Positions 211 to 19,570 of a stretch of DNA of 22,705 nucleotides are shown one piece after another (position 1 is the first letter of the stretch; every line of letters begins with the position of its first letter). The position numbers and the translations under genes were made by a program. The notes under the pieces were generated by a model. It worked only from the letters and a program-made list of their open reading frames with translations. It ran no database searches and had not been told where the DNA came from. This DNA is from a virus: positions 1 through 22,705 of the IMG/VR virus record IMGVR_UViG_3300030382_003166; one strand, given 5' to 3'.

Positions 211-2189
211 TTAGCCGCGCTCGGCGTACAGGTGGCCGATGGCGTTCGGGTCGATGACCTTGCGGCCATAGACGTTCAGGCCACGGATCAGCTTGCCGAA
301 GTCGTTGGGGTTCGGCAGCGTTTCCATGTTGGTCATCTGGCTGGCGAAGGTCAGAGCCTTCTTGTGACCAAAGATCACGTTGGTGGCCGGACGGGTGGTG
401 GTGCCATCAACAACCGTGCTCAGGTTGTTGGACACGTACACGGTGAAGCGATCCAACTCGCCCACCTTGCCATTGCGGTAAACGCTGGTCGCGTCACCCA
501 TGGCGCTGGCGTCGCGCAGATCAGACTTCTTGAGCATGCCGTTCATCCACGCCGGGATAACGATGTACCGCCCGGTGTTCGGGCAGTTCTGCTCGTCCAG
601 TGCCACGCCGGCATCAACAATCACATCCATGATGTTGGCCTTGGTGACGGCTACCGGCGCGCCGGCGGCGCCCAGGTTGATGGATCCAGATTTGGCACCA
701 GCGGCTGCGCCGGCATTCTCTGCCGCCGCCTCGGTGTACGCGTAGGCGTTCACGTCGGTGTCGATCTGGATGGACATTTGTTGACCACCATCGTCAGACC
801 AGTTGTCCATCAGCTTGATGTCGGACTGGTAGGCGTCCACATCGTTGACCTCAAAGGCAAAGTATTTCGCCTGGTCAATCTGCAGCTCTACCTTGTCGGA
901 AGTCGGCTTCTCGTAGTTGAGGCCGCCGCCGATCTCGTAGTCACGGATGGTGATGGACGGGGTGGTACGGATCTGTACGGTGTCACCCTGCTGCTTGATC
1001 TCGCCTTCGTACAGGCGTGTTACCCCAAGGGCTCTTTATCCCCTGGTTCTGCCGGTTCATTTCCCGACAGTTCGGACTATATCATCACCCAGCGCGGGAG
1101 CCGTGAGGCTTCCTTCCATCCGCATGCCGGCGAACATTCCTGTAATACTCTCGCGAGTAACAGGCTGTGCAGAGGCCTCCGCGCCTTTTTTCGTAGATCA
1201 CGGAATTGCATTCTCTGCACTCGCCAACGGGTGTCTGGCACTCGTGGGAACGCATGTCTGATAGGTGGCTCAGTTTGTAGAGCATTGGTTCCGGGATGTA
1301 TTCCTCAATTAAACGACCGAACTTTTTGCTTTCTTCGGTGTTCGCTTCAATGAAGAATTGACTCCCGGGGCTGCAAGTTTTCTTGCAGCGCTTCTTGAAG
1401 GCAATTCCGTGATTTTCAATAAACCACTGTATTACCTGCTCCACCTCTTCTTCTGAGCACATCGTTGCAATGTTGGTAGCGACCGAGGTTACTCGTCCAT
1501 CTTTGTTGGTGTTTCGCCTGGCATGACCATCATCCATGTACCAAATGGCAATGCCTTCAGGTGTAAGCATGTCAAGCACCTGACCAGAAAGGCGCTTTTG
1601 GCCTCCCGGGTACAGCCAGCGCTTGACCTGACCAAAGTACGGATGACTGACTCCGAACTGATACGCACTGTACCTGCCCCCCGGTCCATTCTTAACCTTG
1701 GTGACATTGATCTGCCTTCCGCCTAGCGCCCATCCTAAACGCTTGGCCTTCCACTCAACATAGAGCCTTTGGCTTTCACCGTGCAGAACCCTCATTGTGC
1801 GGGATTCGTAAGGATACTTGCCTTGCCCGAGTCGCTGACGGACCTGGATATGCCCGTCACCAAGCGCCATCCCAATGATGACGCCTCGCTTTTCGCTATT
1901 CATTGCAGCACCTATTTCGTGGCACTAAGGCCATGAGGTATGAAATGCGTCCCTAGTCTCTGAACCTTCCCAAGTCCGTTTGGGCTTGGCTGCTGATTCC
2001 CGTTTCAGGGTTCCAGCAATTCACCAGATTTTACACCGACCACGATTAATCGGTGTTGGCGATTTCGGCGTAGTAGGTGTGGGCGTACAGCTTTTCGACC
2101 AGCTTTCCGCTCCATACGGAGGGGATAAAGCCGGGGGTGCTGGTGCTGGAGTAATTCGGGTGCCCTGCGGCACGAGTTGGACCTGCCAT
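211..2189 (-). CDS. Major capsid protein, split by a group I intron (exons 2049..2189 and 211..1011)
   Basis: Exon 1 (2189..2049, 47 codons) starts at an ATG behind AGAGGT and ends ...AEIANTD; without splicing it meets a TAA immediately. Exon 2 (1011..211) resumes in frame with YEGEIKQQGDTVQIRT and ends HLYAERG. Joined, they give a 313-aa protein with an HK97-fold-like layout: N-terminal FIPSVWSGKLVEKLY, the ANTD/YEGEI junction, TIRDYEIGGGLNYEKP, QIDQAKYFAFEVND, and a C-terminal segment. It forms the icosahedral shell around the scaffold encoded just upstream (2232..3185). The fold family (P22 gp5-like or another HK97-type lineage) is my reading of the N-terminal pattern and of gene order. 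Conventional gene calling would see only the fragment starting at an internal GTG (840) and miss the first 104 residues. Confidence is high that this is the capsid gene and that it is intron-split. Confidence 0.9.
1012..1087 (-). ncRNA. Group I ribozyme core, 3' half (P8/P7 3' strands, P9 stems, terminal G)
   Basis: GAUAUAGUCC (S-type element) contains UAGUC (1079..1075), which pairs perfectly with GACUA of the 5' half as P7, the guanosine-binding helix. P9 is a 7-bp hairpin CUGUCGG/CCGGCAG (1070..1064 with 1055..1049, one G-U). A second 7-bp hairpin, CCAGGGG/CCCUUGG-like, follows before the terminal G at 1012. Tentative P8: CAUACC (1942..1937) with GGU-G-AUG (1089..1083), which would place the endonuclease gene in the P8 loop. 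Confidence 0.88.
1085..1903 (-). CDS. LAGLIDADG homing endonuclease encoded in the capsid-gene intron
   Basis: A 272-aa protein started by ATG behind AGGTG (6-nt spacing). Two LAGLIDADG motifs are visible, VIIGMALGDG at residues 8-17 and GIAIWYMDDG at 117-126, each with the acidic residue that coordinates the metal; the ~108-residue spacing fits a monomeric two-domain enzyme. Near the C-terminus, C229-x2-C232 and C245-x2-C248 look like a zinc finger, which could add DNA contacts. By family, it should cut an intron-less capsid allele at or near the intron insertion site and so spread the intron. The stop TGA (1087..1085) falls inside the presumed P8 3' strand, directly before the P7 element, so the last residues are encoded by or next to ribozyme sequence. 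A maturase role is possible but not shown. Confidence 0.9.
   Translation of the reverse strand: MNSEKRGVIIGMALGDGHIQVRQRLGQGKYPYESRTMRVLHGESQRLYVEWKAKRLGWALGGRQINVTKVKNGPGGRYSAYQFGVSHPYFGQVKRWLYPGGQKRLSGQVLDMLTPEGIAIWYMDDGHARRNTNKDGRVTSVATNIATMCSEEEVEQVIQWFIENHGIAFKKRCKKTCSPGSQFFIEANTEESKKFGRLIEEYIPEPMLYKLSHLSDMRSHECQTPVGECRECNSVIYEKRRGGLCTACYSREYYRNVRRHADGRKPHGSRAG
1954..2048 (-). ncRNA. Group I ribozyme core, 5' half (P1, P4, P5, P6, P7 5' strand)
   Basis: Reading the minus strand: the P1 guide is at 2040..2033. UUGCUG (2019..2014) pairs with CAGCAG (1995..1990) as P4. CCC/GGG (2010..2008 with 2001..1999) forms P5. CCCAA/UUGGG (1984..1980 with 1973..1969) forms P6. The conserved R-type sequence GUUCAGAGACUA follows, whose GACUA (1958..1954) is the 5' strand of P7. 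P3 is not clearly resolved by eye; AAAU near 2031 with AUUU near 1946 is the best candidate. Confidence 0.88.
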
Positions 2190-7684: not shown

Positions 7685-8232
7685 TACTGGCCACGCACCT
7701 CGGCAATCAATTCTGCGAGGGTTTTGGCCTTCTGGGCGTTGTCCTTCTCATACCCGCCCAGGTGCTTCATCAGCTTTTCCAGGGCGCTGTTCTTGTCCGC
7801 AATCTTGTACTCGGTAATGGTCGCCAGTTCGCCGTCCTCACCGATGGGTGTCTGGCGCACCTTGATACCAGCAATAACAGCGGCCACATCGTCGTCCAGT
7901 TCCTGAATCGGAATCGGAATCCCCTTGTTATTGAACAGCCGGCGGGCATCAAACAGACCAATGCGGGCAATCTCTTTCAGCACCCGGCCCTGCGTGACAT
8001 CGGCTTCTTCGGCCACCGCGTCGGTTTTCTCTTGCAGGTAGGCCTTGGTATACGGGTGATTGAAATACTCGCACCCCATGGCCTCGCACACCTTCTTGCT
8101 GGCGCGCGGGTGCAGGGCGCCGTAACACTTGGCAGCATCCCCACGCACTTCATCCGGGCCACCACGATACAGGTCTGCGAACTCCCGCAACTTGGCTTTG
8201 GTGGATTCTCTCGGGTTCTCAGCAAGGGCCAT
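7684..8232 (-). CDS. terS: Terminase small subunit
   Basis: A 182-aa protein of the Terminase_2 type: an N-terminal DNA-binding region where AAKCYGALHPRASKKVCEAMG resembles the family's helix-turn-helix with its N-acquire-A-YxxxxA logic, followed by HPYTKAYLQEKTDAVAEEADV and a C-terminal oligomerisation/terminase-contact region (NSALEKLMKHLGGYEKDN). The GGYEKDN ending is typical. It recognises viral DNA and hands it to TerL. Its ATG overlaps the stop of the upstream structural gene (TGATG) and its stop overlaps the TerL ATG. Confidence 0.92.
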   Translation of the reverse strand: MALAENPRESTKAKLREFADLYRGGPDEVRGDAAKCYGALHPRASKKVCEAMGCEYFNHPYTKAYLQEKTDAVAEEADVTQGRVLKEIARIGLFDARRLFNNKGIPIPIQELDDDVAAVIAGIKVRQTPIGEDGELATITEYKIADKNSALEKLMKHLGGYEKDNAQKAKTLAELIAEVRGQ

Positions 8233-10238
8233 CAGTGCATCCGGTCAATCAAAATCATCAGAATCTGGAACACGGCGGTTCGGTAGCCGGTCGTGGTGAT
8301 TTGCAGTTGCAGCGGCACCGCCTCGCCTTCTTCCATCGGGTTGGCACGCAGCCAGACCTTCACGCGGTCCTGGCCGGTAACCTGGCCAATGGCGACCACA
8401 TCCAGAGACTCGGAGCCTTCGGTGGCCACCCAGGAGCCCTGGGCGATGTCGTCACCTTCCAGTGCCAGCCAGTCGGTCAGGTCGAAATCGAAATCCATCA
8501 CCTCGCCCGCTTGCAGCACGAACGTCTTGGCAAAGTCAGACGGCATAACGGGGCGGCGAACCACGGCGGTGCGGCGTACCGGCGCCGGGTTATCAAACGG
8601 GTAATTGGTAGCCGGCAGAACCGTCACGATTCGGGTGGCGGTACCGGTGTTGCCAGTGCTGTCCGACACGGTGTAGGTGATCGGGTAACTGCCGGCCTTG
8701 GAGGTATCCACGGAGCCTGTTGCCACCACCTGGGCGGTCAGGTCACCATCCACGTTATCCGTGGCGGTGTATCCTGGCTCAGACCAGGTATCGCCAACGG
8801 TCAACGTCAGGTTGCCGCCGGTCAGCGAGATCACCGGCGCAGTCGTGTCGTCCGGCACAAACTCAACCACCGTCACAGTTCGGGTGGTGCTGGTGCTGTT
8901 ACCGGCCGCATCCTCGACGTAATAGGTCAAGGTCTGCTCACCCAGCTGGTTCTCGTTGATCGAGCCGGTGACCTGCACCTGCAGGGTCAAATCGCCGTCT
9001 GCGTTGTCGCTCGCGGTGTAACCGGGCTCTGAATACGGTGTGCCCTGCACCAGTTCAATGTTGCCGCCAATCAGCGAAATGGTCGGCTTGACGGTATCGG
9101 CCAGGGTGGTGGTGCTGAATGCTCCGCTCTGACTGTTGCCAGTCGGGCCGAGCGTCAGTGTTGTGGTCTTGGTGGTGCCGTAGGTGCTGGCCGACCTGTG
9201 GCGCACGCGGATCTGGTGGTTCAGGCGCACGTTGCCGGGGTCGGTTGTCCACAAACCCCAATTAGCACCAGCATCGGTAGACACCGAATATTCGCCATTT
9301 TCCACCGATACCGGAATATCAATGCCTGCATCCACCTCAGTGACCGTGATCACGTTGGAAGTCTGGTACAGGTCCCGGGCAACACCGGTCAGCGCATTGA
9401 AGGCGAACGCAGCAGGCTTGGTGTCCTGCGCACCCGCAAGGCCGGTAGTATCAATGGTCAGGTAATAAGTCGTGCCGTCCAGGGCAACGAATCGAACCGG
9501 AATCACCGCCTCCAGATCGGTGGCGAAGTTGCCGTACTGGTCGAAGGCGCCGGCGGAACTCTGGGTAATCAACTGCTCCCCGGCCACCGGTTGGCGGCTC
9601 CAGTTCTGGAACAGGTACGGCTCAATGGGCTCAACCAGGGTTGCCAGCGCACGACTGCTGCCCACAATGTAATTGCCGCTCACGCTCGCCACCTGGCGCG
9701 TGGCCACCGCAGCCGACACCAATACGTTGGACTGGTTACTGGATGAGTCAACGTGCACGAAATGGACGTAATAGCTGTTACCAAGCGCAAGGCCGGTGAA
9801 GCTGACCGATTGCGTGCCTGTGGCGCTCACCGCCTGGCTGGTGCCGCTGGCAATAATTTCCGGCGCGGTCTCAGTGGCGTTCGTTGAAATCAGCGCATAC
9901 AGCGTGCCGTTGGCCTCGTCGGTATCGACCGTGGCATCAATGGCATCGGCTGCGCTGCGGGTGGCGGTCACGTTGGACAGGATCGGTGCCACCGCATCCG
10001 GGGAGCCGATCAGGTAACTGACCGCCTCGGTGGAGCCATTCGCCTGCACATGCCGCAACGTGTAGTTGCCGTCAGCACCGGTCACTACGCCATCATTGGC
10101 AACCGTCAGCGGGTCCGGGTACTCGATCTGATCCCCGGTCACCGGAGTGGTGGCAAACGACGCATCGCCTGCCCAGCCGGTCAGGCTGAGAAACAGCCGG
10201 CCGCTTACCGGAATGTAGTTACCCGCCGCAATCGCCAT
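8232..10238 (-). CDS. Large structural/fibre protein with two tandem Ig-like (DUF5011-type) domains
   Basis: A 668-aa protein. Residues 382-458 and 465-541 are two 77-residue copies of a bacterial Ig-like domain; both share EPGYTAxDN and DGDLT, and they look about half identical. Further N-terminal segments (80-180) also look fibronectin/Ig-like. Residues 542-668 form a distinct C-terminal domain (DFAKTFVLQAGEVMDFDFDL, VKVWLRANPMEEG) similar in flavour to short phage fibre-tail adaptor proteins. No signal peptide. A virion surface or tail-fibre role is inference: Ig-like domains decorate many virion proteins and help adhesion. ATG 10238 overlaps the previous stop (TGATG). What lies upstream and downstream (fibre-like genes, terminase) places it in the late operon. 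Confidence 0.8.
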   Translation of the reverse strand: MAIAAGNYIPVSGRLFLSLTGWAGDASFATTPVTGDQIEYPDPLTVANDGVVTGADGNYTLRHVQANGSTEAVSYLIGSPDAVAPILSNVTATRSAADAIDATVDTDEANGTLYALISTNATETAPEIIASGTSQAVSATGTQSVSFTGLALGNSYYVHFVHVDSSSNQSNVLVSAAVATRQVASVSGNYIVGSSRALATLVEPIEPYLFQNWSRQPVAGEQLITQSSAGAFDQYGNFATDLEAVIPVRFVALDGTTYYLTIDTTGLAGAQDTKPAAFAFNALTGVARDLYQTSNVITVTEVDAGIDIPVSVENGEYSVSTDAGANWGLWTTDPGNVRLNHQIRVRHRSASTYGTTKTTTLTLGPTGNSQSGAFSTTTLADTVKPTISLIGGNIELVQGTPYSEPGYTASDNADGDLTLQVQVTGSINENQLGEQTLTYYVEDAAGNSTSTTRTVTVVEFVPDDTTAPVISLTGGNLTLTVGDTWSEPGYTATDNVDGDLTAQVVATGSVDTSKAGSYPITYTVSDSTGNTGTATRIVTVLPATNYPFDNPAPVRRTAVVRRPVMPSDFAKTFVLQAGEVMDFDFDLTDWLALEGDDIAQGSWVATEGSESLDVVAIGQVTGQDRVKVWLRANPMEEGEAVPLQLQITTTGYRTAVFQILMILIDRMH

Positions 10239-18058: not shown

Positions 18059-18273
18059 TGGCCACCCCCACAAACAAACGGTGCACTCTGAGTTACGCGC
18101 TTCTCAGGCTGGTGCCAGGTATCCCGGCTCTTGGGCTCAAGTTCAAGTCGATAGCGGCCAGAGGTGCAGGCAAAGGCGCCGCCCTGATCCCGGTGAAGCT
18201 TGCTGCCGAATCGGCTGGTTTCGATGGGTAGGCCGCGTTGGCAGCCGTCGCATTGGTTGATTCTTTCTTTCAT
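18055..18273 (-). CDS. Unknown small protein with CxxC knuckle
   Basis: A 72-aa protein starting at ATG 18273 in an ATGA overlap. It begins MKERINQCDGCQRGLPIETS and has a CDGC pair, a later Cys (GGAFACTSGRY), and near the end VCGGGQ, enough for one small zinc ribbon. No family recognised. Confidence 0.7.
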   Translation of the reverse strand: MKERINQCDGCQRGLPIETSRFGSKLHRDQGGAFACTSGRYRLELEPKSRDTWHQPEKRVTQSAPFVCGGGQ

Positions 18274-19274
18274 TCGCACAACCCGTAGACGCTGGTGCAT
18301 TTCGGCTGATCATCGGTAATGTCAATCGCGTTGATCAGATCGTATTGGCGCCCGCCACGGCTGGTCTTAGCCCACTCGACGACAGCACGAATTCCGTGGG
18401 TGTCTAGGCGGATATCATCCATTGAAGTTGAGTTGCCTGGGATAGTGTCGGCAGGGAAAAGGGTGCTGCATCCTCGTTTGCTCGCAGCACTGACCAGAAC
18501 TTCCCAATCAGCAATCAGATCAATAACCCACGGGAATACCCTATGGATTGATAGCAGCTCGTCTTTCTTGGCGTGAATGCACGGCATGCACCCAACGCGC
18601 CCCATGCCGAATTCGTAAAGCGGATTCCACCGGATGCCGGCTTTTCGGTGCTGAGCAAAAACATCTTGCACAGTCCAGTCAATGATTGGGCGGTAGATCA
18701 GCCAGCCTTTCGGCTCTGGCTCCCAGCTTCCGATCTCAATGTCATACATCGGAAGATCCCGGCGATTCAGGGATTCATCAGCCCTAACACCCTGCCAACT
18801 GATCACCGTGCTGTACTGCTTGAACAGTGGGCGCATAAACGCATCAAGCGGTTCGTGCTTCAGCTCCTGGCTACAGAACCTGGCGCGAGTGCTTGGGAAG
18901 CGTCCTTTCCAGATGCAAAGATCCAAGAACGGGTTACCGGTAGGCCTCAATGCATCAATCATTCGCTCTAACATTGGCGCGGTGTATTGCTTCAGTCTAC
19001 GGTTTCCGCGCCCAGCGTTATCAAGCTCTAGCAGCTGCTTAATCAGAGATCGTCTTTTTTCTTCGATCCTTTGTGAAAAGTCCGCCTTTACCTTATGGAT
19101 GGTGATTCCCAGCGCATCCTCGAGGTATTGAACGTACCGATAAGTCTCCGGGTGCTCGTGCCCGGTGTCAGCGAAAACAAAAACAGGGTTTTCGACGTTG
19201 CGCTCAAGCGCAAGCGTAATCATCGCCGTAGAGTCTTTTCCGCCACTGATCGAAAGGACGTTGCAGGTAGTCAC
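18270..19274 (-). CDS. PP-loop ATPase, PAPS reductase / adenylyltransferase family
   Basis: A 334-aa protein. Start GTG 19274 gives the GTGA overlap and leaves SGGKDST, the PP-loop, at residues 10-16 as expected at the N-terminus; a longer version from 19334 or 19295 is possible. Other family features: VFADTGHEHPETYRYVQYLE, RARFCSQELKHEPL, a WQGVRADES motif, and YRPIIDWTVQDVFAQHRKAG with GCMPCIHAKK. By family it activates a substrate with ATP or handles sulfonucleotides; phage copies are usually called PAPS reductase, but sulfur insertion into nucleic acid is another option (DndC relatives). No partner Dnd genes are seen, so the substrate is unknown. Confidence 0.88.
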   Translation of the reverse strand: MTTCNVLSISGGKDSTAMITLALERNVENPVFVFADTGHEHPETYRYVQYLEDALGITIHKVKADFSQRIEEKRRSLIKQLLELDNAGRGNRRLKQYTAPMLERMIDALRPTGNPFLDLCIWKGRFPSTRARFCSQELKHEPLDAFMRPLFKQYSTVISWQGVRADESLNRRDLPMYDIEIGSWEPEPKGWLIYRPIIDWTVQDVFAQHRKAGIRWNPLYEFGMGRVGCMPCIHAKKDELLSIHRVFPWVIDLIADWEVLVSAASKRGCSTLFPADTIPGNSTSMDDIRLDTHGIRAVVEWAKTSRGGRQYDLINAIDITDDQPKCTSVYGLCE

Positions 19275-19570
19275 GCCGCCACCCCCGGCACCCATCCCCT
19301 GCGGCGCTCTTTCGTCAACTCCAGCCGAATCCAAACCGGCACCCGCTTCAGCTCATACTTGTAGATGGTCGAGCCATCCAGTTGCTTGATGGGCTTGGCC
19401 GGGGGAATCTCGCAGCGGTAGTCGTTGCGCAGCTCCCGAATCCGGGCAGTGACTGCGGTATCTGAGGCAAGCCCTGCCTTGCGGCGGATTTCGCCAGCGG
19501 TCATGGGGCCAGCCTTGTGCATGGCGCGAAGGACTTTTCCGAGCTTGGTTTCTTTGCTTGGGACTCTCAT
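19271..19570 (-). CDS. Helix-turn-helix protein
   Basis: A 99-aa protein from ATG 19570 in an ATGA overlap. The segment LGKVLRAMHKAGPMTAGEIR then RKAGLASDTAVTARIRELRN has a winged helix-turn-helix look (MTAGEIRRKAG, turn, TAVTARIREL recognition helix) followed by a beta wing (GSTIYKYELKRV) and a basic tail KERRRGW. Probably a DNA-binding regulator; the target is unknown. Confidence 0.78.
   Translation of the reverse strand: MRVPSKETKLGKVLRAMHKAGPMTAGEIRRKAGLASDTAVTARIRELRNDYRCEIPPAKPIKQLDGSTIYKYELKRVPVWIRLELTKERRRGWVPGVAA

Follow-up and report, generated by a model that had tools for sequence, protein, structure and literature searches.

A probably mobile group I intron with a LAGLIDADG endonuclease gene in a phage major capsid gene whose relatives are interrupted at several positions

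Introns in phage capsid genes are already known, as the preliminary description of the present DNA had stated. In mycobacteriophage LittleE, a probable group I intron of 819 bp lies in the gene of the major capsid protein, of the HK97 type with a delta domain, and its splicing was proven by RT-PCR and protein sequencing (PMC3706429). The same article cites a capsid subunit gene with a group I intron in the lactococcal phage Tuc2009 (PMC3706429). Moreover, in phage PhiPA3, an intron-encoded endonuclease is reported to act between co-infecting phages and to disable rivals (PMC11620839).

The capsid gene studied here belongs to a virus record of 22,705 bases (the window, that is, the whole stretch of DNA analysed). 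Its intron resembles that of LittleE by the U that precedes it, the G that ends it and the LAGLIDADG gene that it contains (PMC3706429). However, it is longer (1,037 nt), and the endonuclease gene, which lies on the opposite strand in LittleE (PMC3706429), is on the same strand as the capsid gene and overlaps the ribozyme core. The likeness to Tuc2009, as cited, is that of a capsid gene with a group I intron. The PhiPA3 enzyme, from a different phage, is intron-encoded like that of the window (PMC11620839). At the nucleotide level, 76-78% identity over about 70-85 nt links the 5' core of the window intron to the psbA intron of Synechococcus phage S-PM2, and its 3' core to introns of Streptococcus thermophilus phages; these introns are, however, found in other genes or loci and have other ORFs.

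In the window, genes for the terminase and the portal, a gene intervening between portal and capsid, and the major capsid gene are on the minus strand (Table 1). The capsid frame is interrupted after codon 47 by an insert whose first codon is TAA (2048-2046), which places an in-frame stop at codon 48. Joining position 2049 to 1011 gives a frame of 313 amino acids that matches phrog_267 "major head protein" (9.3e-61) and the solved phage capsid structure 8e16 (7.4e-24). The spliced protein is 49% identical to Rhizobium phage capsids, the closest isolates being phages that infect Rhizobium. In the intronless relative L002 (93% amino acid identity; L-numbers designate related loci), the capsid sequence is continuous across the junction (...IANTDYEGEI), and 35 other homologues are also uninterrupted. 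Comparison with intronless homologues, put forward in the preliminary description as a check, thus bears out its splice sites, after 2049 and before 1011, which are exact to the base. When the exon 2 frame is read on from its last upstream stop, a start codon is first met at 840 (GTG), 57 codons into the exon. Since the intron opens with TAA and exon 2 offers no start before 840, neither exon alone would yield the conserved protein. That capsid production depends on splicing, as had been proposed, may be inferred on good grounds.

Table 1. Coordinates of the capsid exons, the intron, its helices and the endonuclease gene in the window
Feature	Coordinates	Strand	Details
Exon 1, major capsid gene	2189..2049	-	47 codons, MAGPTR...AEIANTD
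Exon 2, major capsid gene	1011..211	-	begins YEGEIKQQ, runs to stop at 211
Group I intron	2048..1012	-	1,037 nt, starts UAA, ends G; RF00028 and covariation
P1 internal guide sequence GUCGGUGU	2033..2040	-	pairs with exon 1 end ACACCGAU, 2056-2049
P10 guide UCGUG	2041..2045	-	pairs with exon 2 start UACGA, 1011-1007, 5 bp
P3 5' strand UCUGGUG	2028-2022	-	comparative pairing
P3 3' strand UGCCAGA	1240-1234	-	in endonuclease ORF (codons C-Q-T); 100% paired, 3 compensatory pairs
P4	5' strand UUGCUG 2014..2019; 3' strand CAGCAG 1995-1990	-	covariation count
P5	1999..2010: CCC 2010-2008 / GGG 2001-1999	-	covariation count
P6/P6a	1965..1989	-	CC/GG and CCCAA/UUGGG; covariation count
P7	5' strand GACUA 1954..1958; 3' strand UAGUC 1079-1075	-	invariant in 8 introns
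P8 5' strand CACCC	1233-1229	-	in endonuclease ORF; 100% paired, 3 compensatory pairs
P8 3' strand GGGUG	1090-1086	-	overlaps endonuclease stop codon (1087-1085)
P9 hairpin	1049..1070	-	4 pairs with compensatory changes
P9.1 hairpin	1025..1046	-	5 pairs with compensatory changes
LAGLIDADG homing endonuclease gene	1903..1085	-	819 nt, 272 aa; PF03161 (LAGLIDADG_2) 1.4e-23; phrog_11023

Helices P1, P10, P4, P5, P6, P7 and P9, claimed at first from the window alone, are all recovered when eight related introns are compared; P3, P8, the endonuclease gene with its ribozyme overlap and the family-wide capsid introns were absent from that account. The eight introns are those found after codon 47 in the window, L058, L159, L089 and L122, and after codon 48 in L085, L111 and L087. 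Over the 47 core pairs counted in this set, 98.7% of cells pair (92-100% for each helix), and 20 pairs show compensatory changes. The covariation score is 0.392, versus 0.147 after shuffling, and none of 500 shuffles reaches any of five measures. In slid-register controls, pairing falls to 29-44%; the helix positions were picked on the window sequence, so that the true register has an advantage over the slid ones, whereas the compensatory changes are independent of that choice. P3, for instance, is found as UCUGG/CCAGA, CCCGG/CCGGG, GCUGG/CCAGC, CUCGG/CCGAG and CCUGG/CCAGG.

Covariation extends to the exons. P1, which in the window joins ACACCGAU to GUCGGUGU (8 bp, with U-G at the splice site), reads ACACGGAU/GUCCGUGU in L122 and CGACUAU/GUAGUCG at codon 48, and its guide covaries with the exon from C-G to G-C in L159, L089 and L122. 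P10 also changes with exon 2, from UACGA/UCGUG in the window to UAUGAGG/CCUCAUG in L122. When guides are exchanged between exon types, P1 drops from 6-8 bp to 1-4 bp. A script served to count P1 and P10 in place of the MAFFT alignment, in which the codon-48 introns have their exon ends misaligned.

The search with the Rfam group I model, also proposed as a check, depended on its setting. In a relaxed search, RF00028 aligns across the full model (38.7 bits, E 5.8e-8). The default search of the window gives no match, this score being below the RF00028 gathering score of 50, which is a database cut-off and not a biological criterion. As the relaxed search retrieves what the default one misses, the cut-off is no evidence against the intron. 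The low score is likely caused by the ORF between P7 and P3', which stretches the model; relatives of this intron at its own codon or at neighbouring ones score 52.7-88.8 bits. Scanning the region against all Rfam families returned the group I model, one chance match and nothing else. Thus, the Rfam alignment, the covariation of the core, that of exons and guides, and the uninterrupted relatives support a group I intron with both splice sites as given, in agreement with the first assignment. The intron may be IA-like. The interval from the 5' strand of P7 to P3', which is the place of P7.1/P7.2 in IA introns, is occupied by the ORF, and only the ORF-less intron of L071 shows, by eye, a stem like P7.1/P7.2. 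As to likeness to phage IA introns, there is the similarity to the S-PM2 psbA intron given above.

The cmscan placement of P3' and P8 within the ORF was unreliable, and the comparative one was used instead. An automatic joint search for the two elements gave other top-scoring positions for the window, since its P8 has 5 bp only; the position taken is the codon-anchored one common to all eight introns. The ORF begins after the 5' strand of P7, and its 3' end encodes P3' and the 5' strand of P8. Because the 3' strand of P3 falls in the codons for C/R-Q/R, just after H-E in the endonuclease, changes there would serve RNA pairing and protein together. In L111 and L122, the endonuclease ORF continues through the 3' strands of P8 and P7 (GDDIVRP and GDEIVRP being translated core), so that more of the ribozyme is also coding sequence there than in the window.

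The endonuclease has two LAGLIDADG-type motifs with their acidic residues. Residues G15, D16, D124, D125, G126, C229, C232, C245 and C248 are invariant in eight sequences, and the C-terminal CxxC...CxxC segment looks, by eye, like a zinc finger. I-SceI, a LAGLIDADG intron endonuclease of solved structure that comes from a yeast mitochondrial rRNA intron, gives a weak match (E 6.6e-5) to residues 87-213, which ends before this segment. Comparison with L058 yields a dN of 0.076 and a dS of 0.87, and the ratio of about 0.09 indicates that the endonuclease is under purifying selection. Among the matches listed for the window enzyme, the eight loci with at least 46% identity are all in capsid genes, and the remaining matches, at most 31% identical, come without a capsid match. 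When an alignment of the endonucleases was used, all loci of at least 37% identity among the matches listed were in or beside a capsid match, with capsids down to about 30%, a fidelity to the target that is partly by construction, the alignment having been built from capsid introns. A scan of bacterial genomes with the endonuclease alignment retrieved distant relatives only (at most 32% identity).

The distribution of the intron is patchy. In a capsid tree of 60 rows (a quick tree, with SH-aLRT support only), introns are scattered, with 15 label changes, and the relatives closest to the window group (L002) and to L058 (L007) lack an intron. The endonuclease and capsid trees disagree: the capsid of L122 groups with those of L085 and L111 (100/100) and its endonuclease with that of L088 (99/98), and the endonucleases of codon-48 introns do not form one clade (AU p 0.007). 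The window and L003 differ by 1 mismatch in 2132..1007, versus 35 in the next 1 kb on the exon 2 side and 18 in 1.4 kb upstream, an interval that was picked post hoc on metagenome contigs in which assembly effects are possible. The synonymous contrast, which is independent of the interval, gives a dS of about 0.006 for the endonuclease versus 0.12 for the MCP (pS 0.006 versus 0.112). With L060, only 2 mismatches are found over about 3 kb of upstream sequence together with the intron, and divergence begins five bases into exon 2. Such a near-identical intron tract in diverged flanks is homing-like, in that homing with short co-conversion would leave this trace. A recent transfer between the window and L058 was also considered and is not supported, the endonuclease dS (0.87) not being below that of the MCP (0.73).

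From these sequence comparisons, it is very likely that the major capsid gene carries a mobile, perhaps IA-like group I intron that splices itself and is spread by its own LAGLIDADG enzyme. The capsid pre-mRNA would fold its own ribozyme, and guanosine would attack after U2049. Exon 1 would then be ligated to exon 2 at 1011, past the terminal G, and the spliced mRNA would direct synthesis of the 313-aa capsid protein. The LAGLIDADG enzyme would cut the intronless capsid alleles of co-infecting relatives at the conserved stretch encoding NTDYEG, and repair of the cut allele would copy the intron in.

The in-frame stop at codon 48 could also be that of a capsid pseudogene, or of two exons translated separately. 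However, the spliced frame is exact and conserved, uninterrupted relatives exist, the ribozyme core covaries, exon 2 is devoid of a usable start before the GTG, and the same layout recurs in contigs whose capsids are only about 45% identical, so that a reading without an intron is very improbable. An intein, a group II intron or a translational bypass, each able to interrupt a coding frame, is more improbable still. An intein is excluded by the stop codon with which the insert opens, the result of the all-family Rfam scan goes against a group II intron, and an insert of 1,037 nt in which a group I core is conserved does not suggest a bypass.

A formerly mobile intron, now fixed, deserves more consideration: it would still splice, no longer home, and be inherited vertically with losses. 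The window and L058, with an endonuclease dS near that of the MCP, would fit this course, as would the truncated HNH remnants or the lack of an ORF in L125, L148, L154 and L174. It is nevertheless unlikely, as the window endonuclease is intact, with conserved motifs and purifying selection, and as the identity tract and the patchy distribution argue for movement. To the mobile intron, which we favor, a further role might be added, in which the endonuclease is kept mainly as a weapon that cuts the capsid gene of intronless rivals. The gene that would be cut is essential and conserved, intronless relatives exist, and the action reported for the PhiPA3 enzyme offers a precedent in another phage (PMC11620839). 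Homing alone, however, accounts for the pattern, and this addition is rather doubtful.

Among relatives in IMG/VR, fitted intron positions fall after at least seven capsid codons (31, 44, 47, 48, 50, 98 and 231), and three of them lie within nine nucleotides. After codon 47, introns with LAGLIDADG_2 ORFs (Pfam) are found in the window, L003, L060, L228, L058, L159, L089 and L122, and, by reading, in L088. The codon-48 introns (L085, L087, L111 and copies) have ORFs assigned to LAGLIDADG_2 by alignment, and HNH_3 is the type found after codon 50 (L080, L207, L218, L174, L164, L154, L148, L127, L125 and copies). Elsewhere, LAGLIDADG_1 ORFs are in the introns after codons 31 (L054, L059) and 44 (L057), a LAGLIDADG_2 ORF (Pfam) is in that after codon 98 (L076), and the intron after codon 231 belongs to L071. 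Within the introns of L154, L174 and L071, no ORF was recognised; the HNH gene of L218 is on the opposite strand, L125 retains an HNH remnant, and L148 probably does so too, by eye. L359, L361 and L364 may have a further insertion, in phase 1, one base past codon 47.

The fitting script required a U before the intron and a G at its end, so that protein continuity and P1 matches are the independent support for these positions, which are less exact at codons 98 and 231, where P1 has 4-5 bp only. Introns after codons 31 and 44 gave no Rfam match at E 0.05; the calls there rest on the protein frame, the U and G ends, P1 and the LAGLIDADG_1 ORFs, and their assignment to group I is less certain. In the most diverged capsids, the splice-site script fitted no sites. 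It should also be noted that the pattern scan, which demanded an NTD-like exon by a group I core, is biased towards codons 47-50. Positions elsewhere stem from the capsid search, in which 10 of the 80 best loci are interrupted, a count of capped and ranked matches that is not a prevalence.

The capsids of L127 and L174 are near-identical, and their codon-50 introns measure 975 nt with an opposite-strand ORF and 318 nt without it. The first 45 nt of the two introns are identical and their 3' parts 78% so; the difference is a gain or loss of the endonuclease gene. The L127 ORF shows zf-FCS and weak phrog homing-endonuclease matches and is possibly, by eye, of the EDxHD type. In L311 (2275-5124), as in L310, a single capsid gene contains two insertions, near codons 31 and 240. 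The first is of the LAGLIDADG_1 type; the second is a group I intron above the Rfam gathering score with its own ORF of 256 aa. In L352, L354, L355, L357, L358 and L375, whose capsids have about 28-31% identity, related LAGLIDADG introns are apparently located further downstream, near VxxYARG, and two reach the Rfam gathering score.

What is newly seen here is this family pattern, with the capsid gene as a repeated landing spot for introns, a single capsid intron being of a kind already known. In the open-access literature, no capsid gene was found described with this many insertion positions or with one-codon shifts. Tentatively, and as a possibility more than a probability, one lineage of LAGLIDADG/group I introns may have become a specialist of one conserved segment in the capsid genes of tailed phages and followed its target into capsids of about 40% identity or less. 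On at least one occasion, its insertion point would have moved by one codon, with guide and P10 retargeted, the hot spot of nine nucleotides would be shared with HNH introns, and the element may be an inter-phage weapon.

The window provides a further, well-defined example of a phage whose most abundant virion protein would depend on ribozyme splicing. As the endonuclease ORF encodes P3' and P8, constraints on protein and RNA may be separated in one sequence. Within one capsid gene family, intron gain, endonuclease decay, small site shifts and double insertion can be compared, which offers a natural series to test how mobile introns choose and change their targets. Virus surveys based on capsids that need an unbroken ORF would presumably miss such phages.

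Two other genes of the window, both on the minus strand, may be mentioned. One (8232..10238) encodes a 668-aa protein with repeats of the form ISL.GGN...PGYTA.DN.DGDLT, Ig-like in look and with no PHROG match. The other (18270..19334) encodes a PAPS reductase-domain protein (PF01507, 8.7e-28).
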